64,000 nt of DNA from NCBI GenBank assembly GCA_019090455.1, contig JAHRWA010000016.1, positions 1 to 64,000 on the forward strand. Direction: 5' to 3'. Positions 2,130 through 53,553 of this stretch are shown here, one piece after another. The stretch comes from Pseudomonadales bacterium. GTDB taxonomy: Bacteria; Pseudomonadota; Gammaproteobacteria; Pseudomonadales; DC-out160. Every line of letters begins with the position of its first letter. Within the stretch, counting starts at the first letter, position 1. The notes beneath the pieces were generated by a model, which ran no database searches, had not been told where the DNA came from, and worked only from the letters and a program-made list of their open reading frames with translations. The translations under genes were made by a program, and so were the position numbers.

Positions 2130-2179
2130 TGTTTTTCTGCGTGCCGTCTTTTCTGGATTTTAAGTTTGTCTGTGTGGGC

Positions 2180-3632: not shown

Positions 3633-3634
3633 GA

Positions 3635-4708: not shown

Positions 4709-4710
4709 GG

Positions 4711-7106: not shown

Positions 7107-7151
7107 TCAGTTTTCTCCAGCTTTTCTAAATCGAGGGGATTTGAGTCAATC

Positions 7152-25691: not shown

Positions 25692-26663
25692 TTGCATAAG
25701 ATTCAAATTATTACATTTCTCATTGTCATCAGTGTGACCAACCATGCGAGTGCTGACTGGTTTAAGAAAACAATGCCTGTGATGGGGACTTCTGTCATGG
25801 TGGAGTTGTGGCACGTAGATAGCGAACTATCTGAAGCGATTGTCGACGAAGTTTTTCAGGAAATTTACAGAATAGAAAATTTAATGTCACCCTATTTGCC
25901 TGATAGTGGCCTGTCTCGAATTAACCAAAACGCCTATAGCATGGCTGTTAAACCAGATGCTGAGTTGTTTGCTGTTATTGAACAAGCCCTCCTTTTTTCA
26001 GTGAAAACCGAGGGAGCTTTCGACATCAGTTTTGCGTCAGTCGGCCATCGATTTAACTACCGAGAAGGAAAAAAACCCAACGCAATTGAATTCGAAAAGT
26101 TGCGTTCCCTGATTGATTACCGTTTAATCAAGCTGAATCCTCAGAACAAAACGATACGCTTTCAGCGATCTGGTGTTAAGCTCGATTTAGGTGGTATCGC
26201 AAAAGGTTACGCGGTGGATAAGGCGATTGAGTTGTTGCGTCAATGGGGAATTCAATACGCGATTGTTACCGCCGGAGGCGATAGTCGGATTTTAGGGGAT
26301 AGAAAGGGTCGCCCTTGGATAGTGGGAATTAAAAATCCACGAGCCGACAATGTGCTTATTTCGCTTCCTCTGGAAAATGCAGCCGTTTCTACCTCAGGCG
26401 ATTATGAGCGTTTTTTTGAAAAAGAAGGGGTTCGCTACCATCACATCATAAACCCTAAAACGGGTCATTCAGCCGATTCGTTGAGAAGCGTTACTATTAT
26501 CGGTGATGACGCTATGATGACGGATGCACTGTCCACCAGCGTTTTTGTCATGGGTATCCATGATGGGTTAGCCTTGCTAGAAAGCATTGAGGATATATCG
26601 GGGGTTTTGATCGATCAGGCTAACAATGTCCATTATACCAGCGATTTGATTGGGCTAAAGTAG
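25692..26663 (+). CDS. apbE: FAD:protein FMN transferase (ApbE)
   Basis: ApbE cuts FAD and links FMN to a Thr or Ser in exported proteins, including RnfG and RnfD. The 323-residue protein has an N-terminal signal peptide (IQIITFLIVISVTNHASA) with no lipobox cysteine after it. MGTSVMVEL is the typical opening, LDLGGIAKGYAVDKA is the FAD-binding region, and HHIINPKTGHSA and DALSTSVFVMG hold the metal-binding Asp and Thr. The start is TTG (MHKIQII) by the frame; AGGC is 9-12 nt upstream. It converges on the minus-strand redox and envelope block 26699-37825. It may modify the Rnf subunits, an unknown target in that block, or both. Confidence 0.93.
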   Translation: MHKIQIITFLIVISVTNHASADWFKKTMPVMGTSVMVELWHVDSELSEAIVDEVFQEIYRIENLMSPYLPDSGLSRINQNAYSMAVKPDAELFAVIEQALLFSVKTEGAFDISFASVGHRFNYREGKKPNAIEFEKLRSLIDYRLIKLNPQNKTIRFQRSGVKLDLGGIAKGYAVDKAIELLRQWGIQYAIVTAGGDSRILGDRKGRPWIVGIKNPRADNVLISLPLENAAVSTSGDYERFFEKEGVRYHHIINPKTGHSADSLRSVTIIGDDAMMTDALSTSVFVMGIHDGLALLESIEDISGVLIDQANNVHYTSDLIGLK

Positions 26664-26698
26664 TCGAGCTAACATCGGTTAGTTTTGTTAGTCGAGCT

Positions 26699-28783
26699 TT
26701 AATTCCACCAAGATTTTATGTTTAGAATGGTGCGCCTCTTAGGCATGACGGGCTCCGAAGAGGTTGGTAAGTCGGTGCCCTCTTCAGGTAGTAATCCCTT
26801 TTTACGCCTTTCAATTACGTAAGAGATATCATGTAGATGTGCGATGGAGAGCAAGGTTTCTGATTTTAGTTGCTCCAGCTCATCGATTTGTTCTTCAAGA
26901 ATCTCGCTGGCAATGCTTTGCATATAAGATTGATGTTTATGAAGACTGAGTTGTACACGGGCCAGTGTGGAATCCAGAGACTCATTTAAAACCATAAATC
27001 GCCCTTTAAACCCAGCAAAGCGTTTTTCTGCATTATCATGTGCTAACGTTAGATTTTTGATACGTTCATCTAGCGTTTGGCGCTGTTGTTGAATTGCATT
27101 AGTTTGTTTTTGAATATTCCAATATCGCTCCCCCGAATTTTCACTAATATCCCAACGCCAAATTCCGCGAAGAAAATTAAGCTGCACTTTCTCTTTTTCA
27201 AAAAAAGTACTGTCTTTGTGTTTTTGCAGCAATGCAGCGACGTCATCTAATCTGTACTTTGTTTCCAGTTCATTCAATGATGCTGTTGCGGCGATATTGT
27301 TGCCGGATAGCGCAGCGTGTTGAATAGGGGAGAGTTTATTTAGGTTTTGAGTTAATTCAAGTCGACTCTGAATGGATTGATTGATGACCTCTTTTGCATG
27401 AGGTGTTAGTGCTGCCAAGCGATTTTGATTGAGTTGCAACATGTCGGTAAAGACCGGCATATTTTGTTGCCAGCGTTGGATTAGGAGGCTGAGGCGCTGT
27501 AGCTCTCGATAATTGCGATAACTCTCATTGAATCGATGACTCGCAAAAAACTGGTAAAGGTAATATGAGGCTAATTTCTTTTCTGGTTTGAAGTTGGGTA
27601 GATTGGACATAGGGTCAATGGAATAATCCAGTGGTGGACTTAAACCATCCACCCAAGTATCGGTATTGACAACCTCGATCGCTTTTTTGATTCGTATTTG
27701 CTCTGAGTTGAAAATCGATTTCGCCTCGATATAGCCATCCAAGGCCGTTTTTAACGCGCCCAATTGTTCGTAAACAAAGGGTATGTGCAGATAGACTTCC
27801 TGTACCGATCGATCAATCGAGTCGCGTTGTTTGAGTTCGCTCCAAGGTGTGAGCGCTTTTTCATAATTTTCTTTTGATAAATGGGCCCAGCCTAAAGCAA
27901 ATAATGCCGGATTCGCGAAGGGGCTATCGAGACGAATGTCATTCAAAGTCAGAATGGCAGAGTCGAACTTATCTTGACGAAGGAAATTGATGCCCAGTGC
28001 TAATGCAGATTTATCCTTTAAAGCAGAGATTTCGACATCTTCTCTAGGGAGCTCAAGAATGGCATCGAATAATTTCGTTGATTTGACGCCTTTGCCTAAG
28101 CTTGCGAAGGCTACCGCCATATTATATTTTGCATAGATATTAAGGCGACTAGTGCGAGGAATAGCGCTGAGTTCTTTTACTGCTTGGGAGAAGTTTTTAT
28201 CTCGCATTAGCAATATAGCGTTTAGGATTTTCCGTTCGTTTTCTAAGTTACGGCTCAAATTTTTTAATTGTTGATTTAAAATATGATTGGTTCGATCATA
28301 ATTACCACGCTGGTAGTGCAAAGCCGCGAGATAAAACCAGGCCTGATCTCTAGATTCTTTTTCAGTGGTGCGATCAATGAGTCGATTAAAGATGGATTCC
28401 GCTTCATCAATGAGGCCATAGGATACATAAAGGGAGCCGAGTAATAGTTCTGCGTGGTCCTTGTGTTTAGTTAAGGTCCCGTGTTCTTGAGCGACCAGAG
28501 TCCGGGTGATACTGGAAAAATAACGTTGTTGATAATAATCATACAAGATTTCACCATAGGCAATGTCCTTGACGTAATGAGGTACATTGAGTGGGTCTTT
28601 CACCTTCGCGCTGTGTGAGCTGCCAGACCAGCTGACCAACATAGCGGTAATGATTAAAGCGAAGGTATAGAAGGTAACAGACAGAGGCCGGTGTCTGGGT
28701 CTACTGTTGCTTAACTTTAAGCTGGGCCGGGCGCGAAAGTGAGATAGTGAGATAGTCGTGAATTGATTGTTAGTGATGCTCAT
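26699..28783 (-). CDS. TPR-rich envelope protein
   Basis: This 694-residue protein has one N-terminal hydrophobic helix (about residues 36-56) as anchor or signal, preceded by a basic segment. Residues 75-330 read as tetratricopeptide repeats, for instance LLLGSLYVSYGLIDEAESIF, FYLAALHYQRGNYDRTNHIL, KYNMAVAFASLGKGVKSTKLF and ALFALGWAHLSKENYEKALTPW. The C-terminal third is helical and coiled-coil-like (QTNAIQQQRQTLDERIKNL.., then HLHDISYVIERRKKG). TPR domains bind protein partners, so it is probably an assembly scaffold for this block. It is the last gene of the minus-strand run, 9 bp after the coiled-coil gene. Confidence 0.75.
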   Translation of the reverse strand: MSITNNQFTTISLSHFRARPSLKLSNSRPRHRPLSVTFYTFALIITAMLVSWSGSSHSAKVKDPLNVPHYVKDIAYGEILYDYYQQRYFSSITRTLVAQEHGTLTKHKDHAELLLGSLYVSYGLIDEAESIFNRLIDRTTEKESRDQAWFYLAALHYQRGNYDRTNHILNQQLKNLSRNLENERKILNAILLMRDKNFSQAVKELSAIPRTSRLNIYAKYNMAVAFASLGKGVKSTKLFDAILELPREDVEISALKDKSALALGINFLRQDKFDSAILTLNDIRLDSPFANPALFALGWAHLSKENYEKALTPWSELKQRDSIDRSVQEVYLHIPFVYEQLGALKTALDGYIEAKSIFNSEQIRIKKAIEVVNTDTWVDGLSPPLDYSIDPMSNLPNFKPEKKLASYYLYQFFASHRFNESYRNYRELQRLSLLIQRWQQNMPVFTDMLQLNQNRLAALTPHAKEVINQSIQSRLELTQNLNKLSPIQHAALSGNNIAATASLNELETKYRLDDVAALLQKHKDSTFFEKEKVQLNFLRGIWRWDISENSGERYWNIQKQTNAIQQQRQTLDERIKNLTLAHDNAEKRFAGFKGRFMVLNESLDSTLARVQLSLHKHQSYMQSIASEILEEQIDELEQLKSETLLSIAHLHDISYVIERRKKGLLPEEGTDLPTSSEPVMPKRRTILNIKSWWN

Positions 28784-28792
28784 TGCTTCTGT

Positions 28793-29524
28793 TTATTCCC
28801 AATCTTTAAAAGCAAACTCAGGCTGTTGCTTAACCCTATCGCCAGAAATGATTAACTGTAGGTACTTCGGGCCTGTCTTTTTTTCAAATTTGGTAGAAAC
28901 CGCCCGTCGATAATCTCTGCCTTCGGGGCCTGTACCCACAATAACTGCGACGACCTCATGTTCTCCCGATGCGAGGTTTTCGGTGTGTAGGCGTTGTATC
29001 GCGCCCCTCGAAAGCGCTATTAGCTCTCTGTCGGTGTATAAGTGGTTTGCGACAGGTTTGTCATTCATTTTTAACGTGACTGAGTCAAGTTTAAAGTACT
29101 GCCCGACATCAATAGACAGAAAAACCTTGGTTTGTGTATTGCTGGGAAAGAGAAGATCCTCTTCAAGAATAAATAGATCTCTGTTTATTTTCAGAATATC
29201 TTTCTTAATATTTTGTAACTCATGCTCTAGGCTGAGGCGTGTGTCATCCGTTGTTTCAGCTTTTACTTCCTCAGTTACGATTTCTTCGGCCTTATCGTCT
29301 TTTTCCTCGACCTGCGGACTCTCGGCTATAGTCTCTTTGACCTGAATGTCCTCAACCTGAGTTTCTTCGACTTTAGTCTCTTCAGCCTGAGTCTCTTCGA
29401 CCTTAGTCTCCTCAACCTGTTTCTCTTCCATTTCGGCCCATAATGGAGAGGTTAGGCAGAGGCATAGTGATATCGCTTTTCGGAGGTTTCTTGCTTCTAA
29501 TAGGGAGCCTACAAAATAGTTCAT
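28793..29524 (-). CDS. Periplasmic protein with Glu-rich repeats and coiled coil
   Basis: This 243-residue protein has a signal peptide ending near LWAEMEE. Low-complexity VEET-type repeats follow (about residues 32-80), then a coiled coil (RLSLEHELQNIKKDILKIN). A compact beta-rich C-terminal domain begins TKVFLSIDVGQYFKLDSVTL and includes ASGEHEVVAVIVGTGPEGRDY and KYLQLIISGD. I have seen this last domain next to TPR genes in other proteobacteria but know no assigned function. The repeats look like a flexible periplasmic spacer, and the domain could bind the barrel protein encoded just upstream. Confidence 0.65.
   Translation of the reverse strand: MNYFVGSLLEARNLRKAISLCLCLTSPLWAEMEEKQVEETKVEETQAEETKVEETQVEDIQVKETIAESPQVEEKDDKAEEIVTEEVKAETTDDTRLSLEHELQNIKKDILKINRDLFILEEDLLFPSNTQTKVFLSIDVGQYFKLDSVTLKMNDKPVANHLYTDRELIALSRGAIQRLHTENLASGEHEVVAVIVGTGPEGRDYRRAVSTKFEKKTGPKYLQLIISGDRVKQQPEFAFKDWE
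29351..29429 (-). repeat. 30-bp tandem repeat inside the coiled-coil gene
   Basis: A 30-bp unit occurs at 29351-29380 and 29381-29410 with few changes, and a third partial copy follows to 29429. It encodes the VEETKVEETQ-type repeats. Copy number may vary between strains by slippage. Confidence 0.8.
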
Positions 29525-29542
29525 CGTTACAATTGCCTTATC

Positions 29543-30214
29543 TTAAAAAAATAAACCGACGCCAAAAGTGTATTCTATATTATGGCTAGTGTCGTCAGGG
29601 TCCAAAAAATTCTTATTGAGAAAATAGCTACGTACATCCATATGATAGCTGAGCCAATCGGTAGGGATGGCTCTTAGTCCACCGCCAAAGTGTAGGGAGG
29701 AGTAATGTTCCTGATCGACGGAGAGTCGACCCATTCCTGTGGCAAGGTAGAAGGTAGTATTGATTGCGCGGTTTTTTCCAATAAAGATTTGCCCCGGAAG
29801 AACGTTCATCCCGAGTGAGATATTCATATAATTCATTGTCTCCCCATCAAAGACGCTACCTCGGCCACTTTTGTCCAGATTGATGTCTTTTGCTTGGCCT
29901 TTGGCAACACTGCCTTCTACGAAGAATAGATCGCTTGAATGGAAGTTAATTCTCACGCCTGCAATGGGCTCGGCTCTAAATCCATCCATTTTATAGGCAC
30001 CAATATAAACGGTAGCTTCAATTTTTTCAGTATCTATTACGGGGGCCTTCCGGGCATCACGCTTGATTTCCGGTGAAATCGCTGGAGTAGATGTGTCTAA
30101 TTCGGCAAACGCGTGCGGGATGAATAAAGTGAGAGTGATGCTGCACAGCATGATTGATAGCGATTTAATGTTATTGTTAATGGCTCGAGAATGTTTCTGT
30201 ATCGATAAACTCAT
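29543..30214 (-). CDS. Outer-membrane beta-barrel protein
   Basis: This protein of about 223 residues has a signal peptide (SIMLCSITLTLFIPHAFA) and alternating hydrophobic strands ending in aromatic residues. EATVYIGAYKMDGFRAEPIAGVR, then YMNISLGMNVLPGQIFIG and HFGGGLRAIPTDWLSYHMDVRSY precede the terminal YTFGVGLFF. The order, including the NVLPGQ/E-I-F segment, matches the second barrel half of the protein at 32878-34158, so the two are paralogues. The family is the barrel group first named in myxobacteria (OMP_myx_plus, from memory). I prefer the ATG at 30214, which has GGAG upstream, to the ATG at 30247, which would lengthen the signal peptide oddly. Confidence 0.75.
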   Translation of the reverse strand: MSLSIQKHSRAINNNIKSLSIMLCSITLTLFIPHAFAELDTSTPAISPEIKRDARKAPVIDTEKIEATVYIGAYKMDGFRAEPIAGVRINFHSSDLFFVEGSVAKGQAKDINLDKSGRGSVFDGETMNYMNISLGMNVLPGQIFIGKNRAINTTFYLATGMGRLSVDQEHYSSLHFGGGLRAIPTDWLSYHMDVRSYFLNKNFLDPDDTSHNIEYTFGVGLFF

Positions 30215-30286
30215 TTTACATCGACTCCAGTGATGGATAGATCCCAATGATGTATCAGACCTAAGTGAGGCATAGAGTGGTAGAGG

Positions 30287-30796
30287 CTAGCCACACTGTA
30301 AATTGCCATCAAGTATATAGTGTAATCGGATCATTCGGCCCTGCCGCATAATGTCTAAGTTTAATTCAGCTCGATGTGGTAATTGTCGAACTTCTGTGGC
30401 CCAGGATCGTTGATTTGCTAAATCAATATTGTTGAGTCGAATAATGGTGTCACCCCTTTTTAAACCATAGTGCGTAAAAATGCTGTTAGATGAGACATGT
30501 TTTATGAAATACCCCTCCAAATTAGGGCCACGATAACGCGCAGATAAATGAATCTGCGACAAACTCTCACCGACATTGTCAGTAAGACTCTGTAATTCAA
30601 ATTGAGACAGATATCGACATTCGCTAGAGCTTGATGGCGAAACAGTGGCGCTGAGATTATTGCTCCATAAAATGGTGATTGGAGTGGCGAAGAATAGCAA
30701 GCCCGTGATCAGCAGTCGGATGACTATCAGCTGCGAACTGAGGTGCATTGATTTTAGTTTGGGTCTGGGTCTGGGTTTAAATCGAAAAGGTGTCAT
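30287..30796 (-). CDS. Membrane-anchored PDZ-domain protein (GspC-like)
   Basis: The protein has a proline- and arginine-rich cytoplasmic start, one membrane helix (LIVIRLLITGLLFFATPITI) and a periplasmic part. That part ends in a PDZ domain (LEGYFIKHVSSNSIFTHYGL, then KRGDTIIRLNNIDLANQRSW and ELNLDIMRQGRMIRLHYIL). The layout resembles GspC of type II secretion, but no other gsp gene is present. The start is uncertain: the ATG at 30796 gives 169 residues and a 22 bp gap after the DUF3570 gene, while an ATG at 30877 would overlap that gene by 58 bp. It probably acts as a periplasmic clamp or docking protein for its barrel and TPR neighbours. Confidence 0.65.
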   Translation of the reverse strand: MTPFRFKPRPRPKLKSMHLSSQLIVIRLLITGLLFFATPITILWSNNLSATVSPSSSSECRYLSQFELQSLTDNVGESLSQIHLSARYRGPNLEGYFIKHVSSNSIFTHYGLKRGDTIIRLNNIDLANQRSWATEVRQLPHRAELNLDIMRQGRMIRLHYILDGNLQCG

Positions 30797-30818
30797 GTTT
30801 GATACTGCCCGTCTGTGT

Positions 30819-31976
30819 TTAAAATGGCCAGGATAAGTAAAATTGAACGCGATAGGCGCTAAACTGATAGGCGTCATCTGAACCTAATTCAATATAATCG
30901 TGATAAGTAAAACGCATCAAATCTAAGCTGGCATTGAGACTCACATCCTTGAATGCCCCCTCCAACTTTCGGCCCCAATCATAGCTGGCAATGAGGCCAA
31001 AGGTATGCTGTTTAAATTGGCTGAAATTTTTGTCGCGAGTGAGGTAGAGAGTTGATTGGTCGGCATTGTTGTTAAAAAAGGACGCTTCAGATTGAAGATA
31101 ATAACGATAATGTAAATCTATTTCCCACATGGGATTAATCGGTTGAATGTGAGTAATTAAAAACGTGTGGGAAGTCATATCCCATGAGTCGGTGAAATAA
31201 CGATATTTTAAGACAGCCACCGATTTGGGTTGCATATAGAGACTATTCGAAAATGTGAAGCTATGCTGGATTCGAGTTTCCGGTAGTTGCTGAGCCACCA
31301 GAGCACCTTGCTGCATCGCTGCTAAGTACTGATTTCCTAGTGGACCCTGTTCGCTGACGTGTTCATAGTGAAATTGACTTAACCAATATTGACTCATTGC
31401 CTGAGAGAAATTTAACCGCAGGTTATGACGATCAAGATTTTGTTCTGTTTGGGTGTCTACTCGACCTACTACATCCCATCCTCGGCTAAAGCCAAACCCA
31501 AAGGTACTGCTACTACCAAACATTTCTTGTGAGATATCGATGTGGAGGGTGGATGCTCTGAGGTCGTCCTCGTCGCTATAGCCCGTTTGCAATAAAATTA
31601 AAGTGCCGTTGTTGAGGATATCTAAGCCGAGACTAGTGGCATTTCTTTTTTCACTGTATTCATCGACGCTGGCCTGAGTTTTAACATCTGTTGAGCCATC
31701 GTGAGTGCTGTCGATGATTTGACTTAAACTCAAGCCATAGCGATTGTTGACGTGTTTACGAACGAGCACCTGAGAAGAGGCCACCGTTGTGTCGTCACCA
31801 CTGTAGTAATGCGTAGAGACTTCAGCTTTCTCCTTGGGTAAAGAGGCGGCTATAGACTGTTGTGACAGGAAAATAGAGGGGGCAAATAGCCAAGCCAATA
31901 AAGCTGGTGTCAATAGTGAAAAGGCTGTCCGGTGCATAGACGGGCTATCGTGAGAGGAAAGACTAATTACGTCCAC
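30819..31976 (-). CDS. DUF3570 protein, predicted outer-membrane barrel
   Basis: This 385-residue protein has a signal peptide (LLTPALLAWLFAPSIFLS..SIAA) and a beta-rich body ending in the aromatic YRVQFYLSWPF, typical of outer-membrane barrels. The DUF3570 pattern is clear: AEVSTHYYSGDDTTV, LKYRYFTDSWDMTSHTFLI, then WEIDLHYRYYLQSEASFF. The family has no proven function. From memory of surveys of ApbE loci, DUF3570 genes recur with DUF4266 and thioredoxin-like genes beside apbE, the same set as here. It overlaps the DUF4266 gene by 14 bp. Confidence 0.85.
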   Translation of the reverse strand: MDVISLSSHDSPSMHRTAFSLLTPALLAWLFAPSIFLSQQSIAASLPKEKAEVSTHYYSGDDTTVASSQVLVRKHVNNRYGLSLSQIIDSTHDGSTDVKTQASVDEYSEKRNATSLGLDILNNGTLILLQTGYSDEDDLRASTLHIDISQEMFGSSSTFGFGFSRGWDVVGRVDTQTEQNLDRHNLRLNFSQAMSQYWLSQFHYEHVSEQGPLGNQYLAAMQQGALVAQQLPETRIQHSFTFSNSLYMQPKSVAVLKYRYFTDSWDMTSHTFLITHIQPINPMWEIDLHYRYYLQSEASFFNNNADQSTLYLTRDKNFSQFKQHTFGLIASYDWGRKLEGAFKDVSLNASLDLMRFTYHDYIELGSDDAYQFSAYRVQFYLSWPF

Positions 31977-32196
31977 CTCCGTTGCTTATTCCCGTATTTC
32001 GATCAGTATGATGACGAAACTGTTGTATTGATTCGTGACGTGAGGAACTCATTAATCTGTCTTCGAGAAAGCTCCTTTGGTAAGACTCCACCCAGGGTTT
32101 TTGGGGTATAACAGAGCAGCCGATTATATTGAGGGCTATGACTAGCAGTATCAGCTGCTTGACAATTTTAATGTCAAATTTAGTAGAGGGTATCAT
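31963..32196 (-). CDS. DUF4266 small lipoprotein
   Basis: This 77-residue protein has a lipoprotein signal (LILLVIALNIIGC, with lipidated C27), then PWVESYQRSFLEDRLM, which matches the DUF4266 core. The family usually ends in a Ser/Gly-rich tail with GGGCGCN. Here the tail is RNTGISNGGGRN, so the two terminal cysteines are missing. The role is unknown. Overlaps on both sides (4 bp with the thioredoxin gene, 14 bp with DUF3570) indicate tight translational coupling of the three. Confidence 0.8.
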   Translation of the reverse strand: MIPSTKFDIKIVKQLILLVIALNIIGCSVIPQKPWVESYQRSFLEDRLMSSSRHESIQQFRHHTDRNTGISNGGGRN

Positions 32197-32756
32197 TGCG
32201 TTAACAGCTCACGAATTTCTTGTTCGTAAAGAAGGGCGAATCCAGGCTGATATCCCTTGTGCTCATGTCGGATATTACCGTCACGGTCAATGATGAAGGT
32301 GCTTGGCATTTCTTTGACCTTGTATTTTTTGCTGGTTTCTTGCTTCGGGTCAAAAAGGATAGCGTAGGTTATTTTGGTGTCGTGTAAGAATTCTTCGACT
32401 TCTCTACGATTGGTGTCGTTATTGATGCCAATTACCATGACTTCAGACTCTGGGAATTTCTCTTGAAGCTTCGCTAATTTTGGCATTTCTTGGCGACAGG
32501 GTCCACACCACGAGGCCCAAAAATTGAGTAGCACAATTCTACCTCGTAGATCCAAAAGTCGAGTGTTGGGGCCTTGAAAACGTTTTAATGTGAAGTCGGA
32601 AGCAATGTTGTTTATTTCTTTGACCTGTTTGTTATCTTTTGCGTTGGCCGCTTGAAACGATAAGCTTAAAAAAAGTGGTAGGAGTAACGTAGTCATCAAG
32701 AATAATGTTGAGCGCGAAATGCTGGGTATCGTTGAAGTCATGGGTAATTCTTCCAT
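32193..32756 (-). CDS. TlpA-like exported thioredoxin
   Basis: This 187-residue protein has a signal peptide or anchor (residues 16-40) and a thioredoxin fold with the active site W83-C84-G-P-C87. The segment KEMPSTFIIDRDGNI holds the cis-proline. It resembles TlpA/ResA, which reduce disulfides in the periplasm, typically to keep CXXCH cysteines ready for haem attachment or to serve metal sites. The neighbouring genes encode CXXCH and CX4CH proteins, which makes that role attractive here. The first ATG (32756) is used; an ATG five codons later has the better-placed GGAAGA. Confidence 0.88.
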   Translation of the reverse strand: MEELPMTSTIPSISRSTLFLMTTLLLPLFLSLSFQAANAKDNKQVKEINNIASDFTLKRFQGPNTRLLDLRGRIVLLNFWASWCGPCRQEMPKLAKLQEKFPESEVMVIGINNDTNRREVEEFLHDTKITYAILFDPKQETSKKYKVKEMPSTFIIDRDGNIRHEHKGYQPGFALLYEQEIRELLTQ

Positions 32757-32877
32757 TGCTCTTTCTCTATTTAAATGGCTGTGCTTTATTTAAAAGACGG
32801 TACTGTTTTCAATGGCGGTACTGTCTTTAAATGGAAGTACAACAAAATATTTCTCGGGTTAAAAAATTTAATTAACG

Positions 32878-34158
32878 CTAGAAAATATAGCTGAGGCCAT
32901 AGTGTATTTCAAAATTGTTAGTTGTGATTTCTTCGCCAAAAAGGTCTGAGTTAAAAAGGTGATTGCGCACATCCCAGTGGATAGCGAAATTGTCTGTGGG
33001 ACTAATTCTAAGTCCGGCACCGACTGTCACTGTAAAGTAGTCCTCATTCTTGATTTCAGTGTTGCCAACACCGGCAACAAAGTATAGCTGTGTTGCCCAA
33101 TCGAATTTTCCGCGAAAGACAATTTCACCCGGAAGAGCGTTGTATCCCATCAGCAGGCTATAATAGCGCATTTGATCATCGTCAGAAAAAAGATTAAACC
33201 CACTGCTCTCAAATCCTCTATCAACGAGTTTACTGGAAGCCAAGTTACCTTCTACAAAAAAATCTTCCGAAATAAAATAAGCAAGCCGTAACCCTTGAGA
33301 TGTGTTGGCACTTAAATCTTGCATGCTATAGGAGCCAATGAAAAGACCAATTTCAAAGTCTAGTGTGTTGGGGCTGGTAGAAAACATTTTTTCGAATAAG
33401 GTTTCGGCGTGAGAGCCGTAAAAAAATGAAAATCCTACGGTCCATTCCTGGTGTGAGCCAATTTCTTCGTCACTGAGATACACGAAATAGTTACGATAAT
33501 CGAGCCGCAATAGAAAACGGCTAGAGAGATAATAGTACATGCCCGTACCCACGTTAAAGGCATCTGAGTCTGAGGCCAAAGCATTCTCAATGCTGCTATC
33601 CGGTACCGTATTGAATTGGCCTACTCCGAGTGTGAAATAGGGAGATAACCTGCCTAAGGTGAAGGGATGCAGTAGCAGATTGAGATTGTACGCAGTGGAC
33701 GTACTGATAGCATCTGACGCTTTTAACCAGCCTAATTCAGCGGAAAAAAAGGAGTTGAGTCGGTATGCTAATCGGGCTCCTAGCGCACTTCGGCTAGCGA
33801 GGTTGCCGCCACTAAACCCGAATTCGAAACGTTGGTTTTGATAGTTTTGCAGAATATATTGTTCAAAGCTAATCGGTTCTCCCGATGGGCTTAAACTAAG
33901 TTGAAGGTCTTCTTTGTAGGCCCATCCAACTTTGCCGTTTTGTGAACGTACCTTAAACCAGCCTGTGCGTATCTGAATGATTTCGATCCATTCTCTTCTT
34001 TCAGCAATATCGAAGATAGGGTATCCCCGTCCGGGACCGGAATAGATATTGACGTAGGACTCGCGAACTGTGAAGCGTTCTTCGGCTACAGCAGTCTGTG
34101 TGTTGAGTAGCAGTGCAATGACGGTAATTACCGTAATCAGGGAATGGGATAGAGTCAT
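32878..34158 (-). CDS. SH3-domain protein with two tandem outer-membrane barrels
   Basis: This 426-residue protein has a signal peptide (ending TAVAEE) and a bacterial SH3 domain (VRESYVNIYSGPGRGYPIFD, then GWFKVRSQNGKVGWAYKEDL). Two barrel-like halves of about 150 residues follow. The first contains RLSPYFTLGVGQFNTV, the second YNALPGEIVFRGKFDW and NFAIHWDVRNHLF, ending LSYIF. The second half is a paralogue of the protein at 29543-30214. SH3 domains of this class often touch peptidoglycan or proteins. A fusion of SH3 with two barrels is unusual. It overlaps the upstream haem lipoprotein gene by 4 bp. Confidence 0.75.
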   Translation of the reverse strand: MTLSHSLITVITVIALLLNTQTAVAEERFTVRESYVNIYSGPGRGYPIFDIAERREWIEIIQIRTGWFKVRSQNGKVGWAYKEDLQLSLSPSGEPISFEQYILQNYQNQRFEFGFSGGNLASRSALGARLAYRLNSFFSAELGWLKASDAISTSTAYNLNLLLHPFTLGRLSPYFTLGVGQFNTVPDSSIENALASDSDAFNVGTGMYYYLSSRFLLRLDYRNYFVYLSDEEIGSHQEWTVGFSFFYGSHAETLFEKMFSTSPNTLDFEIGLFIGSYSMQDLSANTSQGLRLAYFISEDFFVEGNLASSKLVDRGFESSGFNLFSDDDQMRYYSLLMGYNALPGEIVFRGKFDWATQLYFVAGVGNTEIKNEDYFTVTVGAGLRISPTDNFAIHWDVRNHLFNSDLFGEEITTNNFEIHYGLSYIF

Positions 34159-34679
34159 TGGATAGAGTCATTGATAGAGGGGTTGGCAATCGGATTAGCA
34201 ATCCATTGGTAGAGAAGTAGATAGTTTTCATCACCCGTGCTGATAAAAATATCCCCCCCGCCGTGGGAGCCCACTGGAGCGTATGAGCCTGTTAAAGGTT
34301 CCAATAAGAGGAGGCTGGCTTCAGGTTGATTCATGTCAATAAAGGAGAGCGTGTTGAGATAGTTTTGTATCATTTCAATACTGTTAGCATCTGTGACGTT
34401 GGCGTTGATTTTAAATCTTCCGCCGTTGCCCGTGATTGCATTGTGGCAGTCCGCGGAAGCACAAGTTTTTCCATTTATGTTTGTGTCGAAAAGAGGGTTG
34501 ATAGCGCTGGCAAAGCCATCTGTGTCATCGAACTTCAATGTTTGAGCGGGTTGAAAAGGTTCATTATCCACTTTTTCACAGCTGACGATTCCTAGTAGCA
34601 ATAAGATAATAACGGCGAGCGAACTTATATTGGATTTCGAAAAGTTGATGTGAAGCTGTTCAATAAAGGTTTCCAGCAC
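34155..34679 (-). CDS. Small lipoprotein with CX4CH haem-like motif
   Basis: The protein has a lipoprotein signal (SSLAVIILLLLGIVSC) and a domain with CASADCH, a CX4CH variant of the c-type haem motif, in the context TNINGKTCASADCHNAITGNG. This layout occurs in single-haem lipoproteins found beside larger multihaem proteins. A later HGGGDIF and W are also typical of cytochrome-like domains. I prefer the GTG at 34679 (AGGT about 11 nt upstream). The ATG at 34784 would put 50 residues encoded by tandem repeats in front of the signal peptide. It may be an electron partner of the HzsA-like protein. Confidence 0.6.
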   Translation of the reverse strand: MLETFIEQLHINFSKSNISSLAVIILLLLGIVSCEKVDNEPFQPAQTLKFDDTDGFASAINPLFDTNINGKTCASADCHNAITGNGGRFKINANVTDANSIEMIQNYLNTLSFIDMNQPEASLLLLEPLTGSYAPVGSHGGGDIFISTGDENYLLLYQWIANPIANPSINDSIQ

Positions 34680-34740
34680 GGTGATGTGACCTACTTCTTT
34701 AGTTGTAGAAATGGAACTAGTGGTAGAACTAGTTACAGAT

Positions 34741-34776
34741 ATAGAACCTAAAACCCATATAGAACCTAAAACCCAT
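34741..34776. repeat. Perfect 18-bp tandem duplication
   Basis: The unit ATAGAACCTAAAACCCAT occurs twice in a row (34741-34758 and 34759-34776), with more degenerate GTAGAACTAGT-like copies just before it. It covers the stop codon of the HzsA-like gene (34766) and the start region of the next ORF, so it probably arose by slippage and blurs that start. Confidence 0.85.
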
Positions 34777-37700
34777 TGATCCAAATTCTTAGCAATTGGT
34801 AATTGATACTGTCGGTAGGCAAGTAGGCTGACGCGCTTAAGGGTAATCCAGTCTGGGGGTCCAACTCAACCGACTTATAAGGGTGGAGCAAAGGATTATT
34901 GTTAACTGATGCCGGTTTTGAGAGAAGAGTGCTGTTCGAAGGGGAGCTAAAATCATCTATCATGCTGAATACCGCATTAAAGTCACTTTCCGTGTTGCCC
35001 GTTAAGATCAATCGATTTCCCGGTAGTTCGGCTTGAGTGATGACGGTGAGATCAATGGATGTCGTCATGTCAGTGGGTGAGTCGTCAGCGGCTTGTGGTC
35101 GATGACAGTAGCCGCATTCTTCCATCAGCATAGGGTGAATAACGTCGCTAAAATCGGCTTTTGCTTGATTGAGCTGTGTGTCGCTGACGCTTTGTCTCTG
35201 TATTTCTGATAAATCCAATAAGTACCCTCCGCTTACATCGTTTGCTGCATTGGGTTCGTAAGGCGAATTAGAAAATTGCGCACCCAAATCAATCCATTCA
35301 TTGATGATGCGTAATTCACCGTTACTTAAGAGTCCCTGATGATTCATGAGGTGATCATCTAATGAATAATGAATGGCTTTGATTTCTGTATGGTATAACA
35401 CTTCGGTCAAAATACTACTGCGTGAGAGCCCTGCGGTAACTAAAGGGGCTTTTCTGAGTATCAGACCTTTGCCATCACTCCCTTGGATTGCCTGAGGAAA
35501 TTGCTCATTTAATAGCGGTGTGCCTAGCAGTAAGGACTGATAAGAAGTGGGTTGACCTGTTGCATTGGGGGTGCTGGTAAGATCCAGTCCGGCAGACCCA
35601 TTGATGTCAGTTCGAACATTGCCGGAGTAATGACAAAAGGTGCAGGTATCGCTGCCAAAAACACCGCGCTCCCGTTCCCAAATAGGTTGTATGTGCTCGG
35701 AGTAATTGATAGTGCCATTGTCGGGTGTTACCAGGACGTCAGTATAATCGAGCTGTTCAGATAAGTCGGGTGTTCGGCCCGCCAGGCTAGGGTCTGTCCA
35801 TACGTCTTGGTAGGAGGGTGTGGCATTGAGTTGAATAGAATCGTTTTGAGTTTCTCTCGCTAAGGTTTCCGCCATTGTCTCATTGATGGTTCCCGTTGCC
35901 GTAACAACTTGTTGCGGTGAGAAGTAGGTGTTTGGGTGAGCTGATTTTAAACTCTCTGTGTTAATTGAGGGTGCTGTTCGCGGGGAGTGGCATCCGTGAC
36001 AGGTGCGAGTCTCGCCAGGACGTACTTGCAACCAACTTAAGTGAGGAGCGAAGGAGCGGCCCTCTTTATCAAGTACTTCAATAGTGATTGGGGTGTCTGC
36101 TGGAATTTCTGCTCGAATGGAGCCATCGGGATGAACCGGTCCATAGCCGACGATTTGTCGCATTTCGTAGTCGGTCTCACCTAGGGTTTTTTGAGCGATG
36201 CCTGAGGGCATGGGGATACCCTTTGTTATTCGAAAATAGCGGGCAGGTCGATCATTCGCTGTGCTTTGCCTGGGATCTTTTAAGGTACTGATGTCTGCAA
36301 TGGCATCGCGTAGATCATTGGGTTCTGTTGGTGAAATGGTATCAAGTGTTTCGCCTAGGTTGGAGGCAAAAACGCTGGCATCCATACGTGCCAAATATCC
36401 ATTGTCGCTATCATACACGCTGAGTATATTGAGAATGCCTGTGGGTATTTCATTCGCTGTTAATTCTAATGTCAGTTGATTTCCCGTATTGCGTATTTGC
36501 TCTGGTGTTGAAGGTACAGGGTAGGTGGAGGGTATTGTTCTGGGACGAATAATAACAGCGCCAAAAACACTATTTTCTCCCTCAGCTAATACCAGAGTTT
36601 GCATCGTCTTGGTGGTGGTATCGACCATCACCAGTTGGTATCGTGTGGGGATTTCTTGATTCTCTATGATAGTGGTAAAGGGATTGGCGATATTCACTTT
36701 TTGAGTGTATCGATAGGATGCAATGAATCGATGACTGCCATCCCACAAAGGGTAAGCGTTAGCAAAACGCCCTGCGGTTGAAAAAGTGTCTGCCAAGGGA
36801 ATGAGGCTTTCGGTTGGTTGGTATTGATCTCGAAGCTCTTGTTCAATTGCCCCCTCCGTCAGTGCACGGCCATTGGGTTTAGATTGTTCATCGAAATGGT
36901 GGTTGTCTATTATCATTACTGCACCGCCTTGTAGCGTTCCGCCCAGTGGCAGTACAGTACAAAGCAATCGACCATCTTCCATTTCTCTCGGTGCCAAGTG
37001 ACTGTTGCCTTCGCTAAAGGCGCCGTATTCAATAAATAATCCGGTACCGTCGGGATTAATGCCATATAGGTCATAGCGGCTTTTATTACCCAGATGAGAC
37101 CAGCGACTAAAAATAATTTTGCCATCACTGCGTACCGTGGGAAATCGATCGTGACTGAGATTGAAACTGATTTGCTGAACATCGCTGCCGTCGTTATTCA
37201 TTGTATGGAGTACCGTAGCGGGATTACGCCGGTATTCATCCACATACTGATAAGGTTCTTGTCCTTGATGAGCTAATAGCAATTGGCTGCGCTGCTGACG
37301 ATCTGAGGAAAAAACAATTCTCCCATTGGGTAAAAAAGCAGGGTCAATATCATTGCCATCATCATTGATTAATATCGGGGAGAGAGCAGCAGTGTCGATA
37401 TCGTAATGCCAGATATTGAAGGTGGTGTCTTGAGGTCGGCGTAGGGATAAAATTAAGGCGCTGCCATCGAAGGAAACGTTAACGCTTTGTACATCCCCTT
37501 CACCCTGAGTTTCCGCTTCAGTGAGATTGATTTCTTCTGCGCTAGCAAGAAGAGAGGAGCGGTAGAAAAGGTCGCCACCGGCACAAAACGTGACACTATC
37601 AATTGCGTCGTTGATCGCGGCAGTGCAACGGATAACATAAGCAAGGGCAATAGGTTTAGATTCTAATGTTTGTCGCTCGCCTGGATTATCGTCAGTGAGA

Positions 37701-37825
37701 ATTAAACTACTGTCATCCTGTGAGCCACCGCAAGCGGATAGAGTCAATAGAAGCAAAAGTAGGATCGCACTCATTTGTGTTCGAATTGTTTGAATCCTAA
37801 TTTGAAAAAAAGTAGAAAGCTGCAT
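34766..37825 (-). CDS. HzsA-like multihaem beta-propeller lipoprotein
   Basis: This 1019-residue exported lipoprotein has lipobox LSAC with C32. Residues 60-430 show TolB/PD40-type propeller blades (DPAFLPNGRIVFSSDRQ, FPTVRSDGKIIFSRWS). Residues 560-616 match the hydrazine-synthase alpha middle domain (HPDGSIRAEIPADTPITIEV, then PGETRTCHGCHSPR). Three c-type haem motifs are present: C609-x2-C612-H, C728-x2-C731-H and C904-x2-C907-H. True HzsA makes hydrazine in anammox bacteria. Members outside that group are widespread and have no proven reaction, so I do not propose hydrazine chemistry. It is the first gene of the minus-strand run and presumably its main redox enzyme or binding protein. Confidence 0.8.
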   Translation of the reverse strand: MQLSTFFQIRIQTIRTQMSAILLLLLLTLSACGGSQDDSSLILTDDNPGERQTLESKPIALAYVIRCTAAINDAIDSVTFCAGGDLFYRSSLLASAEEINLTEAETQGEGDVQSVNVSFDGSALILSLRRPQDTTFNIWHYDIDTAALSPILINDDGNDIDPAFLPNGRIVFSSDRQQRSQLLLAHQGQEPYQYVDEYRRNPATVLHTMNNDGSDVQQISFNLSHDRFPTVRSDGKIIFSRWSHLGNKSRYDLYGINPDGTGLFIEYGAFSEGNSHLAPREMEDGRLLCTVLPLGGTLQGGAVMIIDNHHFDEQSKPNGRALTEGAIEQELRDQYQPTESLIPLADTFSTAGRFANAYPLWDGSHRFIASYRYTQKVNIANPFTTIIENQEIPTRYQLVMVDTTTKTMQTLVLAEGENSVFGAVIIRPRTIPSTYPVPSTPEQIRNTGNQLTLELTANEIPTGILNILSVYDSDNGYLARMDASVFASNLGETLDTISPTEPNDLRDAIADISTLKDPRQSTANDRPARYFRITKGIPMPSGIAQKTLGETDYEMRQIVGYGPVHPDGSIRAEIPADTPITIEVLDKEGRSFAPHLSWLQVRPGETRTCHGCHSPRTAPSINTESLKSAHPNTYFSPQQVVTATGTINETMAETLARETQNDSIQLNATPSYQDVWTDPSLAGRTPDLSEQLDYTDVLVTPDNGTINYSEHIQPIWERERGVFGSDTCTFCHYSGNVRTDINGSAGLDLTSTPNATGQPTSYQSLLLGTPLLNEQFPQAIQGSDGKGLILRKAPLVTAGLSRSSILTEVLYHTEIKAIHYSLDDHLMNHQGLLSNGELRIINEWIDLGAQFSNSPYEPNAANDVSGGYLLDLSEIQRQSVSDTQLNQAKADFSDVIHPMLMEECGYCHRPQAADDSPTDMTTSIDLTVITQAELPGNRLILTGNTESDFNAVFSMIDDFSSPSNSTLLSKPASVNNNPLLHPYKSVELDPQTGLPLSASAYLPTDSINYQLLRIWINGF

Positions 37826-38166: not shown

Positions 38167-38742
38167 TTATTCCTGCACCATCATTCCCTGTAAGAGAGGG
38201 AAGCTCATTAGGTGACTGTGTATCTTTGACATTTCTTCCGGCGTGTAAGGCATTCCATTGAGCAACCAGCGCTTCATTACGTGGTAGCCCGATCCGGTGA
38301 CATGCTCAACGGCATACTCTAAATAACCTGGATCATCAATGATAATTCCGTGGTTACGAGCAATGTTTCCCATCCAGCGCGAGGCGTGATGGCGTAATCG
38401 GTCGTAGCATAAATGATCCGCGTCTGAGCTAAATAGCAGCGTTACCATATCTGCATTTTGTTGTATTAACGTAAAGCCTAACTGACTAATGAGAGTGGAA
38501 CTGTTTTCATCGAAGTTCTTCAAGATGGGCTCAATTTCTTCCATCAATTCTTCGAGTAAGTCGTCGAATATGCAGGAGAAAATCTTTTCTTTAGAGGGGA
38601 AATAATTGTATATGCTCTGGCGGGATATGCCTGCTTTTTCGGCGATGGTTTTGATGCTGACTTTGTGCAAGGGCTGTGTTTCTAAGCAGGACAGCATTGC
38701 TACTTTTACTTTCTCTATCGTTTTTTCTGAAACTGAAGTCAT
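38167..38742 (-). CDS. TetR/AcrR-family regulator
   Basis: This 191-residue regulator has the standard N-terminal helix-turn-helix (VSIKTIAEKAGISRQSIYNY then FPSKEKIF) and a variable C-terminal ligand-binding domain. It is divergent from the ABC cassette that starts at 38988, so it probably represses that operon and itself from the 245 bp between them. The ligand cannot be inferred. Confidence 0.92.
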   Translation of the reverse strand: MTSVSEKTIEKVKVAMLSCLETQPLHKVSIKTIAEKAGISRQSIYNYFPSKEKIFSCIFDDLLEELMEEIEPILKNFDENSSTLISQLGFTLIQQNADMVTLLFSSDADHLCYDRLRHHASRWMGNIARNHGIIIDDPGYLEYAVEHVTGSGYHVMKRWLLNGMPYTPEEMSKIHSHLMSFPLLQGMMVQE

Positions 38743-38803
38743 TTTTTTAGGCTTATTATCGTAGAGTTAAATTTAATCTTCCATGCCTTTTTGTATGGCA
38801 TCG

Positions 38804-38835
38804 CGAAACCCTTTCGATGGCACCAATTCAAATTG
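38804..38835. promoter_or_regulatory. Candidate operators between tetR and the ABC operon
   Basis: CGAAA-CCC-TTTCG (38804-38816) and CAATT-CA-AATTG (38824-38835) are two short perfect inverted repeats in the divergent region. Either could be the TetR operator. The arms are only 5 bp, so the call is weak. Confidence 0.3.
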
Positions 38836-38987
38836 AGCTTAACTGTAAACCAATGTTTCAATTTGGAAAAGGGTTATCTACCATAATAGACGGCGACTCA
38901 TTGTAAGTATACAGTATGTGGGCCAAGTGCAGGGTGATGTTTTGCGAAGCCGTCACAATTTTATTCGTTTATCAAATGAGGTTAAGC

Positions 38988-39707
38988 ATGTTGGAGATTA
39001 TTCGCTTAGAAAATGTCACCAAACAATATCCATTGGGTCAGGTATGGGTGGATGCTTTAAGAGGGGTGAATCTCACCCTTTATTCGGGTGAGTTTGCCGC
39101 TCTTGTTGGACCCTCGGGTAGTGGTAAGAGTACCTTGCTGAATATGATTGGCTGTGTTGATTTGCCCTCTACCGGCAAAGTGTTTGTTGATGGTAATGAA
39201 GTATCAAATCAAAGCGACAAGCAGCTGACTAAACTTCGATTGTATAAATTGGGTTTTATATTTCAGACTTTTAATTTAATGAATGTGCTCGATGTCTATC
39301 AAAATGTCGAAATGCCGTTATTGCTACAAGGCAAACTTAGCAAGAAACAACGCCAATACCGAGTCAATAGTTTAATAGAGCGAGTCGGGCTTAGTGCACA
39401 TATGAAACATAGACCCAATGAATTGTCAGGCGGGCAACGCCAGCGTGTTTCAATTGCCAGAGCGTTGGTGGGCAAGCCAAGAATTGTACTCGCGGACGAG
39501 CCTACGGCTAATTTGGATTCTGTTACCGGAATCGAAATAATCGATCTCATGAAAGAAATTAATCAAACGGATCAAACTACCTTCCTGTTTTCTACCCATG
39601 ATGACCGAGTTGTTTCCAGAGTTGATCGAGTGATTCCCATAGAGGATGGTCTTATTAGGCAGTCTATCGAGAAAGGTCTTGCCGATAGTCGGTTTGTAAA
39701 CGCTTAG
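38988..39707 (+). CDS. ABC transporter ATPase (LolD/MacB type)
   Basis: This 239-residue ATPase shows Walker A GPSGSGKST, the Q-loop in FIFQTFNLM, signature LSGGQRQR, Walker B IVLADEPT and the H-loop STHD. The FQTFNLMNVLDVYQNVEMPL segment is characteristic of the LolD/MacB/FtsE class, which drives mechanotransmission-type exporters rather than classical pumps. I start at the ATG at 38988, which has TGAGG 8-9 nt upstream; the frame is open to 38916 without family support. Two FtsX-type permeases follow directly. Confidence 0.93.
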   Translation: MLEIIRLENVTKQYPLGQVWVDALRGVNLTLYSGEFAALVGPSGSGKSTLLNMIGCVDLPSTGKVFVDGNEVSNQSDKQLTKLRLYKLGFIFQTFNLMNVLDVYQNVEMPLLLQGKLSKKQRQYRVNSLIERVGLSAHMKHRPNELSGGQRQRVSIARALVGKPRIVLADEPTANLDSVTGIEIIDLMKEINQTDQTTFLFSTHDDRVVSRVDRVIPIEDGLIRQSIEKGLADSRFVNA

Positions 39708-39724
39708 AGAGGGGGTTTTTCCGA

Positions 39725-41902: not shown

Positions 41903-41934
41903 TACTTTAGTAAGGGATTTAAGAGAAACATATC

Positions 41935-43302: not shown

Positions 43303-43315
43303 GAATAAATGTCGA

Positions 43316-44155
43316 ATGAATATAGCCATGAATCCCGGTATGTTGACCGTCGTTACCGTAATGACCCTAATGCTTCTTTCATTTTCAAACCCGTCTTTTT
43401 CTGCATCTTCTAGTGCTTTACCTTCTAACGAAGATTCGTTGAATCAGTTGCAAGTGGATACCATTCTTTCGGAAATCGATGAACGTAGTCAGTTCGATAC
43501 GGATTTTAAAGCGTTAATCTATTTACAGCAAAAACACCGTGAAAAGGGAGAGCTACTCTACCAAGCTGCAGTGTATCGGCGTGATGAAAATGACAGGTTC
43601 ATGATGTTGTTTCGAAAGCCTAAGTCTGAGGCAGGTAAAGGCTATTTAGTCATGGAGAAGAATCTATTTCTGTTTAGTCCCAATACCGGGGATTGGTCTC
43701 GGGTGAGTGAAGATCGTATTGCAGGAACGGATACCAATTTAAATAATTTTGAAACCTGGAATTTGGTGGAACGTTTTAATGCTACCTTTCTGTCGAATGA
43801 AAAATTAGGCAAGTTTCACGTTCATCATATCACCTTGGAGAGTAAGCCGGGTAAGAAGGTGGATCATCCTAAGATGGACCTTTGGATCGAAAAAGATTCT
43901 CATCATGTCTTGAAGCAGCAGGATTTTGCATTATCGGGAAAATTATTACGTACCACCTATCGTACTAAGTGGAAAAAGCTCACTAACGAAAAAGAGAGTG
44001 AAAACAGCACAGCTCGCTATATTCCACTTGAAACTCGCGTTTACAACGAAGTAGAAAAAGGCAATCAGACTATTATCGTGATCGATCAAATTGCGCTAAC
44101 GCCATTGGCCGATAATATTTTTACCAAAGCCTGGTTAGAGAGTAAAAGCCGGTGA
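43316..44155 (+). CDS. LolA-like outer-membrane lipoprotein-sorting protein
   Basis: This periplasmic protein of about 279 residues has a signal peptide ending FSASSS. The body matches the LolA-like family often annotated as outer membrane lipoprotein-sorting protein: FRKPKSEAGKGYLVMEKNLF then LFSPNTGDWSRVS; WIEKDSHHVLKQQDFALSG; and a final DNIFTKAWLES. Such folds carry an acyl chain across the periplasm. I start at the ATG at 43316 (AGGA 11 nt upstream). The frame runs back to a TTG at 43295 inside the previous gene. It overlaps the barrel gene by 4 bp. Confidence 0.85.
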   Translation: MNIAMNPGMLTVVTVMTLMLLSFSNPSFSASSSALPSNEDSLNQLQVDTILSEIDERSQFDTDFKALIYLQQKHREKGELLYQAAVYRRDENDRFMMLFRKPKSEAGKGYLVMEKNLFLFSPNTGDWSRVSEDRIAGTDTNLNNFETWNLVERFNATFLSNEKLGKFHVHHITLESKPGKKVDHPKMDLWIEKDSHHVLKQQDFALSGKLLRTTYRTKWKKLTNEKESENSTARYIPLETRVYNEVEKGNQTIIVIDQIALTPLADNIFTKAWLESKSR

Positions 44156-46302: not shown

Positions 46303-46304
46303 TA

Positions 46305-46763: not shown

Positions 46764-46773
46764 GAGTTCTACA

Positions 46774-50367: not shown

Positions 50368-50379
50368 AGTAATCTCCTT

Positions 50380-52224: not shown

Positions 52225-52273
52225 GTTTTTGTCCTGAGTTCAGTGAGTACGGCTTTAGGTTAAGTGATAGGGT

Positions 52274-53515: not shown

Positions 53516-53553
53516 GACGAAATTCCAGTTTAAAATTGAGAGAGTGTTGAGCA

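Follow-up and report, generated by a model that had tools for sequence, protein, structure and literature searches.

A Glt/Agl core complex of unknown function occurs in Gammaproteobacteria (Luciano 2011, Group B; PMC3169522); the available portions of that paper infer horizontal transfer of the core and note an extra core gene that is absent from Myxococcales. What the core does in Gammaproteobacteria that do not glide was left open in the available text of both that study (2011) and a later one (PMC3858216, 2013). An association among the DUF3570, DUF4266, thioredoxin, and ApbE families has been published separately (Meheust 2021; PMC8238504), and the available portion of that report connects these four genes with DsbD in some of the clusters. 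Here, we analyzed a 64,000-nt stretch of DNA from a Pseudomonadales bacterium (the first 64,000 nt of contig JAHRWA010000016.1, here C10, of assembly GCA_019090455.1; hereafter, “the window”), in which an apbE gene faces a block of ten genes that includes one for an HzsA-like cytochrome. This redox block and a Glt/Agl-like motor core co-occur in relatives, lie together, and often form an unbroken run. Both halves are known separately, and their union is apparently widespread and undescribed: as far as the text of the open-access papers was available (including PMC8238504, PMC3169522, PMC3858216, and PMC12758564), no paper joining the halves was found.

Like the Glt/Agl (and Nfs) machinery of Myxococcus xanthus, as presented in the available parts of PMC3169522 and PMC3858216, the system has a trio of one ExbB and two ExbD proteins, a GltG-like TonB arm with an AgmX/PglI C-terminal domain, and TPR proteins, encoded in one gene cluster in many of the relatives analyzed here and split in the window genome. 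What sets it apart is the linkage of this core with an HzsA-like cytochrome, DUF3570, DUF4266, TlpA, and ApbE; the main text of PMC3169522 nowhere uses the words cytochrome, thioredoxin, or redox. ApbE, DUF3570, thioredoxin, and DUF4266 lie side by side in the window (assigned by Pfam and, for DUF4266, by position and BLAST), as in the clusters visible in the available part of PMC8238504, the main text of which contains no HzsA, hydrazine, gliding, ExbB, or barrel. An earlier note on this stretch, made from the sequence alone, had stated that DUF3570, DUF4266, and thioredoxin genes recur beside apbE, which the available text of Meheust 2021 had already reported. The window copy differs from those clusters in lacking both the flavin motifs and the C-terminal CxC of DUF4266, and its thioredoxin matches AhpC-TSA/Redoxin, not the PF13899 of that paper. 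With hydrazine synthase alpha (PDB 5c2v), the HzsA-like protein shares a propeller, a middle heme domain with CxxCH, and a C-terminal heme region, and it differs in having a third CxxCH; the beta and gamma subunits were not recognized among the Pfam matches of the block, and no genome-wide search was made for them. Tol-Pal shares a TolQ/TolR-like channel, and the HzsA propeller resembles TolB; in contrast, the arm here is of the GltG type, heme and flavin parts are present, and Pal and TolA were not recognized among the genes of the run.

The first half of the recurrent gammaproteobacterial run consists of HzsA-like, (CytLip), SH3-barrel, barrel, TlpA, DUF4266, DUF3570, and (ApbE) genes, and the second half consists of CC (a small conserved exported protein), TPR, a large TPR (TPR2), a small TPR (TPR3), ExbB, ExbD, ExbD, and a GltG/AgmX-like arm. 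At two loci (L035 and L036), the redox run continues into CC, TPR, an ~970-residue TPR, a small TPR, ExbB, ExbD, ExbD, and a TonB-like arm. The L035 channel genes match PF01618 (1e-29) and PF02472 (1e-17 and 1e-13), and the arm carries the AgmX/PglI C-terminal domain (NF033768, over cut-off), which is also found at C10:64019-64288. The best match of the L035 arm is the gliding protein GltG (NF033760, 1.2e-19), although strict GltG orthology is not claimed because its 70 bits compare with an equivalog cut-off of 650. TPR and TPR2 match general TPR-type models; TPR2 and TPR3 have weak matches to surface-lipoprotein or polysaccharide-export TPR models, and TPR3 matches the GltE model far below cut-off (6e-4 in L035 and 2e-6 in L053). 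The genes for HzsA, TlpA, DUF3570, CC, TPR, TPR2, ExbB, ExbD, and GltG lie on one strand in 16 loci, among which L163 and L213 are the same place.

Twenty regions found with the HzsA query were read (two from the window's own genome and one from a sister genome), and 16 of the 20 contain a DUF3570 match. The order HzsA, SH3BAR, barrel, TlpA, DUF4266, DUF3570 recurs among them, with ApbE adjoining or inside in several. The earlier note had allowed that the genes might be scattered and not co-conserved in homologous genomes; because the same order recurs across the regions read, they are not scattered, and the neighborhood comparison shows a recurrent run.

Co-occurrence was measured in two genome sets. 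In the near set, 95 related genomes searched with the HzsA-like protein, CC, and the GltG-type domain, CC was found in 32 genomes and the over-cut-off GltG-type domain in 32, with 31 common to both. All 22 genomes with an HzsA match at E<=1e-10 have CC as well as an over-cut-off GltG-type domain. Relaxing the threshold to E<=0.001 gives 26 HzsA genomes, 23 of them with CC; of the four added, G074 has CC, and three with weak partial HzsA matches (G077, G080, and G083) do not. HzsA and CC lie within 16 kb in 16 of the 22, from distances compared by eye. In the class sample, 369 genomes drawn evenly from the class and scored for HzsA at >=100 bits, CC was present in 83 and HzsA in 52, of which 51 have both and only G127 has HzsA alone (Fisher p 3e-39, relatedness ignored). 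With HzsA matches down to 40 bits, CC accompanies 55 of 61. At the 100-bit threshold HzsA is spread over 31 families, and CC occurs in 30 of them. The two genes share a contig in 38 of the 51 genomes and lie within 20 kb in 37; these linkage figures, like copy numbers, are lower bounds, because scoring was limited to the top two candidates in each genome, and the place lists omit second pieces of one gene in about six genomes, with no effect on genome counts. The association of HzsA with CC exceeds chance, and the core can exist without HzsA.

Gene neighbors of CC tell the same story from the side of the core. In the best 80 of 568 CC matches, a set of named loci that was not randomly sampled, TPR always comes next after CC among assigned genes (80 of 80), a neighbor being assignable only if it matches the query set. 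The nearest assigned gene upstream on the same strand, within 500 bp, is ApbE in 28, TlpA in 26, and DUF3570 in 14 of these loci (U3 in 4, the BAR2 barrel in 1, none in 7), and HzsA is seen in 31 of the 42 that have at least 8 kb upstream. The loci include Ketobacter, Candidatus Thiodiazotropha, an Olavius algarvensis endosymbiont, Ectothiorhodospiraceae, Nevskiaceae, and Halieaceae. CC has no Pfam or NCBIfam match; 30 columns are invariant among ten aligned sequences (alignment A1). In the earlier note, it had been taken for a coiled-coil spacer; it is instead a conserved family, and of the ten sequences only that of the window has charged repeats at its start. CC may be the extra gene noted in 2011 as absent from Myxococcales.

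Two variations on the core were seen in passing. Genes for a MoxR-type ATPase and a VWA protein stand beside the core or the HzsA module in L131, L144, L035, and L036 and are perhaps a further assembly partner. In the variant core of L199 to L207, GltG, TlpA, CC, and TPR follow in order, with no HzsA within the available flanks.

In the window itself, all eleven open reading frames of the earlier note, apbE on the plus strand converging on ten minus-strand genes that run from 37825 to 26699, were recovered in place (Table 1). Gaps between neighbors, from the TPR side to the HzsA side, are 9, 18, 39, -59, -14, -4, 121, -4, and -19 bp, so that no gap exceeds 121 bp and five neighbor pairs overlap, the -59 bp overlap hinging on the start codon picked for the PDZ gene. 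The spacing is operon-like. TIGR04565 (OMP_myx_plus) is matched by two of the genes (140 and 101 bits, cut-off 60), the SH3BAR gene corresponds to two separate genes in most relatives, and the assignment of DUF4266 is backed by a relative in the same gene position (BLAST 3e-10).

Table 1. Genes of the window block, with two examples of the second HzsA-like subtype from other loci (positions of the latter are within the locus named)
Feature	Position	Strand	Evidence
ApbE FAD:protein FMN transferase	25692..26663	+	PF02424 4e-81
TPR: exported TPR protein, Glt-like core part	26699..28783	-	TPR families (Pfam)
CC: small conserved exported protein, marker of Glt-like core	28793..29524	-	alignment A1
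BAR2 outer-membrane beta-barrel (OMP_myx_plus)	29543..30247	-	TIGR04565 4.5e-29, over cut-off
PDZ protein, lineage-specific	30287..30877	-	PF00595 9e-4 and GspC-like 2e-11, both below cut-off
DUF3570 outer-membrane barrel, 16 predicted strands	30819..31976	-	PF12094 1.9e-20; AlphaFold2 pLDDT 81.7
DUF4266 lipoprotein, C-terminal CxC lost (ends NGGGRN)	31963..32196	-	PF14086 E 0.013, below cut-off
ResA/TlpA-type thiol-disulfide reductase, WCGPC	32193..32756	-	PF00578 1.4e-31; ResA 3e-34, below model cut-off
SH3BAR: SH3 domain and two OMP_myx_plus barrel stretches	32878..34158	-	Pfam and NCBIfam matches
CytLip: lipoprotein with CX4CH heme-type motif	34155..34784	-	sequence
HzsA-like lipoprotein cytochrome	34766..37825	-	HZS_alpha 8e-19 and PD40
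Second HzsA-like subtype, example	L053 9541-11232		
Second HzsA-like subtype, example	L052 7793-10726		

The motor genes missing from the block lie just beyond the window. On C10, which ends at 71595, GltG (64007-64945) begins 7 bp past the window end and is followed by ExbD, ExbD, ExbB, TPR3, and TPR2 to 71472, all matched by BLAST (locus L114), so that the core is split into CC-TPR at 26.7 to 29.5 kb and the rest at 64.0 to 71.5 kb. The earlier note, which took the TPR protein for a scaffold and its neighbor for a spacer, missed that both belong to a motor-driven Glt/Agl-like core. Within its own genome, CC occurs only in the window and on contig C86, where the gene right after a second-type core encodes another HzsA-like protein. 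The CC-TPR pair of the window probably completes the C10 core, since that core has no CC of its own. A paralogous copy on the 19.7-kb contig C95 (L038) has U3, U2, and U1 beside an HzsA-to-DUF3570 run, keeps CxC and DTLSSAS, and has no CC on its contig. In the sister, a Pseudomonadales metagenome-assembled genome (G001, isolate NORP220), CC-TPR and TPR2-to-GltG are on separate contigs (L138 and L151; L151 and L198 are the same contig). The sister keeps all ten block genes on two contigs, with TlpA cut by both contig ends and best-match identities of 51 to 78%. It is also the only other genome in which the PDZ gene was found, and the PDZ protein, which the earlier note had counted as a part of the system, was rejected as a core part on that ground.

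The HzsA-like protein combines a beta-propeller, an HZS_alpha middle domain, and the motifs CHGCH, CTFCH, and CGYCH. Its structure model (predicted local distance difference test [pLDDT] 67) matches hydrazine synthase alpha (5c2v) with a Z score of 33.4 and a root mean square deviation of 3.3 over 597 residues, and the propeller alone resembles TolB (Z 27 to 28). Identity with hydrazine synthase was considered and rejected: the own-genome paralogue at L038 reaches 44 bits, where the NCBIfam equivalog model has a cut-off of 800. Of the two heme-motif lipoproteins proposed from the sequence, the HzsA-like one does carry CXXCH, whereas CytLip has CX4CH in 13 of 13 distinct sequences, the window included, and CXXCH in none. 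By a loose pattern applied to distinct sequences, lipobox-like starts are found in 66 of 77 HzsA-like proteins, 13 of 13 CytLip, and 39 of 52 U2. The latter belongs to a set, U1, U2, and U3, that is oriented away from HzsA in many relatives and is missing from the window copy. U1 has one CxxCH in all 61 distinct long sequences; U2 has two in 50 of 52 distinct sequences, along with a concanavalin/LamG-like (lectin-fold) domain. U3 (L169 9130-10731 and homologues), divergent from HzsA, is ~530 residues long with an RRDF-type twin-arginine-like start, and neither of the two U3 proteins tried matched a Pfam family up to E 1. Directly after GltG, a second HzsA-like subtype is encoded on C86, on contig C151 of G001, and in G030, G068, G074, and G092; the C86 protein, which is cut by the contig end, has no CxxCH in the available part. 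Matches to MtrC/MtrF and TPR_Slam were all weak and were not used as proof.

The earlier note had reported no flavinylation site in the block, and indeed no [ST]GA[ST] motif occurs in the block, its DUF3570 included. At the corresponding position (site 1), the window has DSTHDGS at residues 89 to 95. The DxxTGA[ST]-type motifs of canonical DUF3570 proteins align to the same place (rows L054, L058, L060, L061, and L062, the last with SGVT, not SGA[ST]); several other canonical rows held wrongly chosen frames and were set aside. Of 57 classifiable rows, 10 read [DE]xx[ST]GA[ST], 42 read [DE]xx[ST][SAT]A[ST], and 5 have neither; D89 and S95 are invariant in an 18-sequence alignment that includes the window and not in the wider set. 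The absence in the window looks like a derived loss, as DxxSGAS- or DxxSSAS-like sequences persist in most relatives. A C-terminal CxC ends 56 of 59 distinct DUF4266 sequences, the exceptions being the window (NGGGRN), the sister (TGGEYY), and G090. CxC is lost or DUF4266 undetected in 4 of 5 motif-lost rows but in only 2 of the remaining 52 (p 2e-4, without correction for relatedness), after merging rows with identical last 200 residues and leaving out 1 of 58 (the truncated L214). The two intact-motif rows without CxC are cases in which DUF4266 was not found: L152 is not beside the system, and L252 is at a contig edge. From these alignments, loss of the flavin site and of CxC is common to the genus and seems to have occurred in other lines also, and this joint loss suggests that the two work together.

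The DUF3570 model (AlphaFold2, pLDDT 82) shows 16 long strands between residue 50 and the C terminus, with the longer loops mostly on the side of loop 93-107 and short turns on the opposite side. The C-terminal residue is aromatic in 57 of 58 distinct sequences, as in outer-membrane barrels. By topology rule, loop 93-107 (S95 and S103) would face outside if both ends are periplasmic. Fold searches returned BamA, PelB, PgaA, CymA, BcsC, and OmpG within a few Z units, and no function is read from these matches because they are generic barrels.

In the sister, an apbE (72% identical) occupies the corresponding position and likewise converges on TPR (L151), and the window's own genome has two further ApbE genes. 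The window also encodes, at 1494-7754 on the minus strand, an Endonuclease-III-like gene and then an Rnf complex (RnfE/G/D/C/B/A families; 2180-7754), of which RnfG carries FMN_bind, a conventional ApbE substrate. RnfG (FMN_bind 3e-20) and RnfD, at 2952-4708, are ordinary candidate ApbE targets.

With modest confidence, we favor the reading that the block represents one instance of a composite proton-driven trans-envelope machine that acts on surface cytochromes and the DUF3570 barrel. One half would be an outer-membrane or surface redox module, in which the HzsA-like cytochrome lipoprotein has heme-type and barrel partners, the DUF3570 barrel would carry (in the window, would formerly have carried) covalent flavin attached by ApbE, and TlpA and the CxC end of DUF4266 would form a thiol pair. 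The other would be a Glt/Agl-type core with an inner-membrane ExbB/ExbD-like proton channel, a TonB/GltG-like arm, and periplasmic TPR and CC proteins. We infer an energy transfer, an electron route, and a purpose from this gene content: proton flow through ExbB/ExbD would drive the GltG arm; the TPR and CC proteins would relay the motion to barrels and cytochromes, placing, assembling, or energizing them at the cell surface; and electrons would pass from the periplasm through thiols (TlpA, then DUF4266) to the DUF3570 flavin and on to the hemes, or in reverse. The window copy, with flavin site and CxC lost and with heme motifs, TlpA, CC, and TPR kept, is on this basis probably a heme-only variant that uses motor genes ~26 kb away on the same contig. 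The earlier note's proposal of an undescribed trans-envelope electron or assembly system thus stands as a conserved genetic unit, through co-occurrence and linkage, with the mechanism predicted. A fuller version, in which the proton-motive force acts via the Glt-type arm to move or energize an outer-membrane complex of the HzsA-like protein and a flavin-bearing DUF3570, with the flavin in an extracellular loop, is offered only tentatively.

Several findings weigh against this reading. HzsA and CC are unlinked in six near-set genomes (G005, G012, G057, G058, G065, and G082) and on different contigs in 13 of 51 class genomes (some of them fragmented metagenome-assembled genomes), and they are 23 kb apart in one more; 32 of the 83 CC genomes lack an HzsA match that reaches 100 bits. 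The window genome itself has its motor genes 26 kb from the block edge and 34 kb from CC. Homology to GltC, GltD, and GltE is putative or weak, the GltE model being matched far below cut-off. The second HzsA subtype is represented by five distinct long proteins, of which two lack CxxCH and the other three carry two each, and the HzsA-like structure model itself is only moderately confident (pLDDT 67). The published [ST]GA[ST] motif is exact in only 10 of 57 DUF3570 rows, making flavinylation of most barrels putative; the loop with the flavin positions is modeled poorly (pLDDT partly <50), and the motif-lost row L147 still ends in CxC.

The position of apbE may be incidental, with the enzyme serving the Rnf complex, a possibility that we take seriously while doubting it. 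RnfG and RnfD are encoded in the same window, and the DUF3570 of the block lacks the flavin motif; however, ApbE adjoins CC or HzsA in many relatives, the sister has the gene at the same place, and two further ApbE genes are available in the genome. Somewhat less likely is that the motor half exports or assembles lipoprotein cytochromes (HzsA-like, CytLip, and U2) to the outer surface and that the redox genes only mature them, thiols serving heme attachment and ApbE serving flavin. TlpA/ResA proteins are cytochrome c maturation reductants, the three cytochrome families have lipobox-like starts, TPR2 and TPR3 weakly match surface-lipoprotein or polysaccharide-export models, and the DUF3570 barrel resembles, among others, the export barrels PelB, PgaA, and BcsC. 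That barrel likeness is generic, however, with BamA and porins scoring alike; no dedicated secretion partner was identified among the genes, and joint loss of CxC and the flavin site would be left unexplained.

We consider it improbable that two unrelated envelope systems merely share loci by joint inheritance and form no physical machine. Horizontal transfer of the core was inferred in the available part of PMC3169522, and the modules can stand apart, as on C95 (a redox module without CC) and in the 6 of 22 near genomes where they are unlinked. Against this stand the nested distribution (CC in 30 of 31 families with HzsA at >=100 bits), the several differing gene orders, and the second HzsA subtype directly after GltG. 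Least credible is that the window block arose by duplication of the canonical C95 copy and is now decaying. CxC and the flavin motifs are gone from the window and kept on C95, but all ten frames are open, the CxxCH/CX4CH, WCGPC, and lipobox motifs are present, the sister retains all ten genes, and, on the contig that carries the C10 core, no CC-TPR pair exists other than that of the block.

If the fuller, more tentative version holds, inner-membrane mechanical work would serve surface redox chemistry, and this was perhaps the original function of the machinery that later gave rise to gliding in myxobacteria. The redox partner set is nested in the distribution of the core and is often contiguous with it, and it therefore provides a concrete, testable prediction of the core's role and a lead on the function of Glt/Agl-type motors in non-gliding bacteria. 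The DUF3570 flavin system is extended as well: the model suggests a flavin site on the outward-facing side of a barrel in the outer membrane, and flavin-site loss is tied to loss of the DUF4266 CxC.

No tRNA was found in the window, and a scan for promoter-like (21 versus 26.5 by chance) and terminator-like sites (15 versus 12.4) was uninformative. At 38167-45672, a TetR regulator diverges from genes for an ABC ATPase, two FtsX permeases, a LolA-like protein, and a 506-residue protein without an assigned family, a set common only to the window and the sister among the sources examined. The Lol-like ABC/FtsX/LolA genes (38916-44155) were rejected as a part of the system, as they match only the window and G001 among 61 sources (60 loci and the window); among 181 sources, FtsX and LolA again match only these two, and L187, L229, and L258 match the generic ABC ATPase alone. 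Genes for CheW, a large CheA-type hybrid kinase, a methyl-accepting receptor, and a periplasmic binding protein follow in a row at 45751-53554 on the minus strand.

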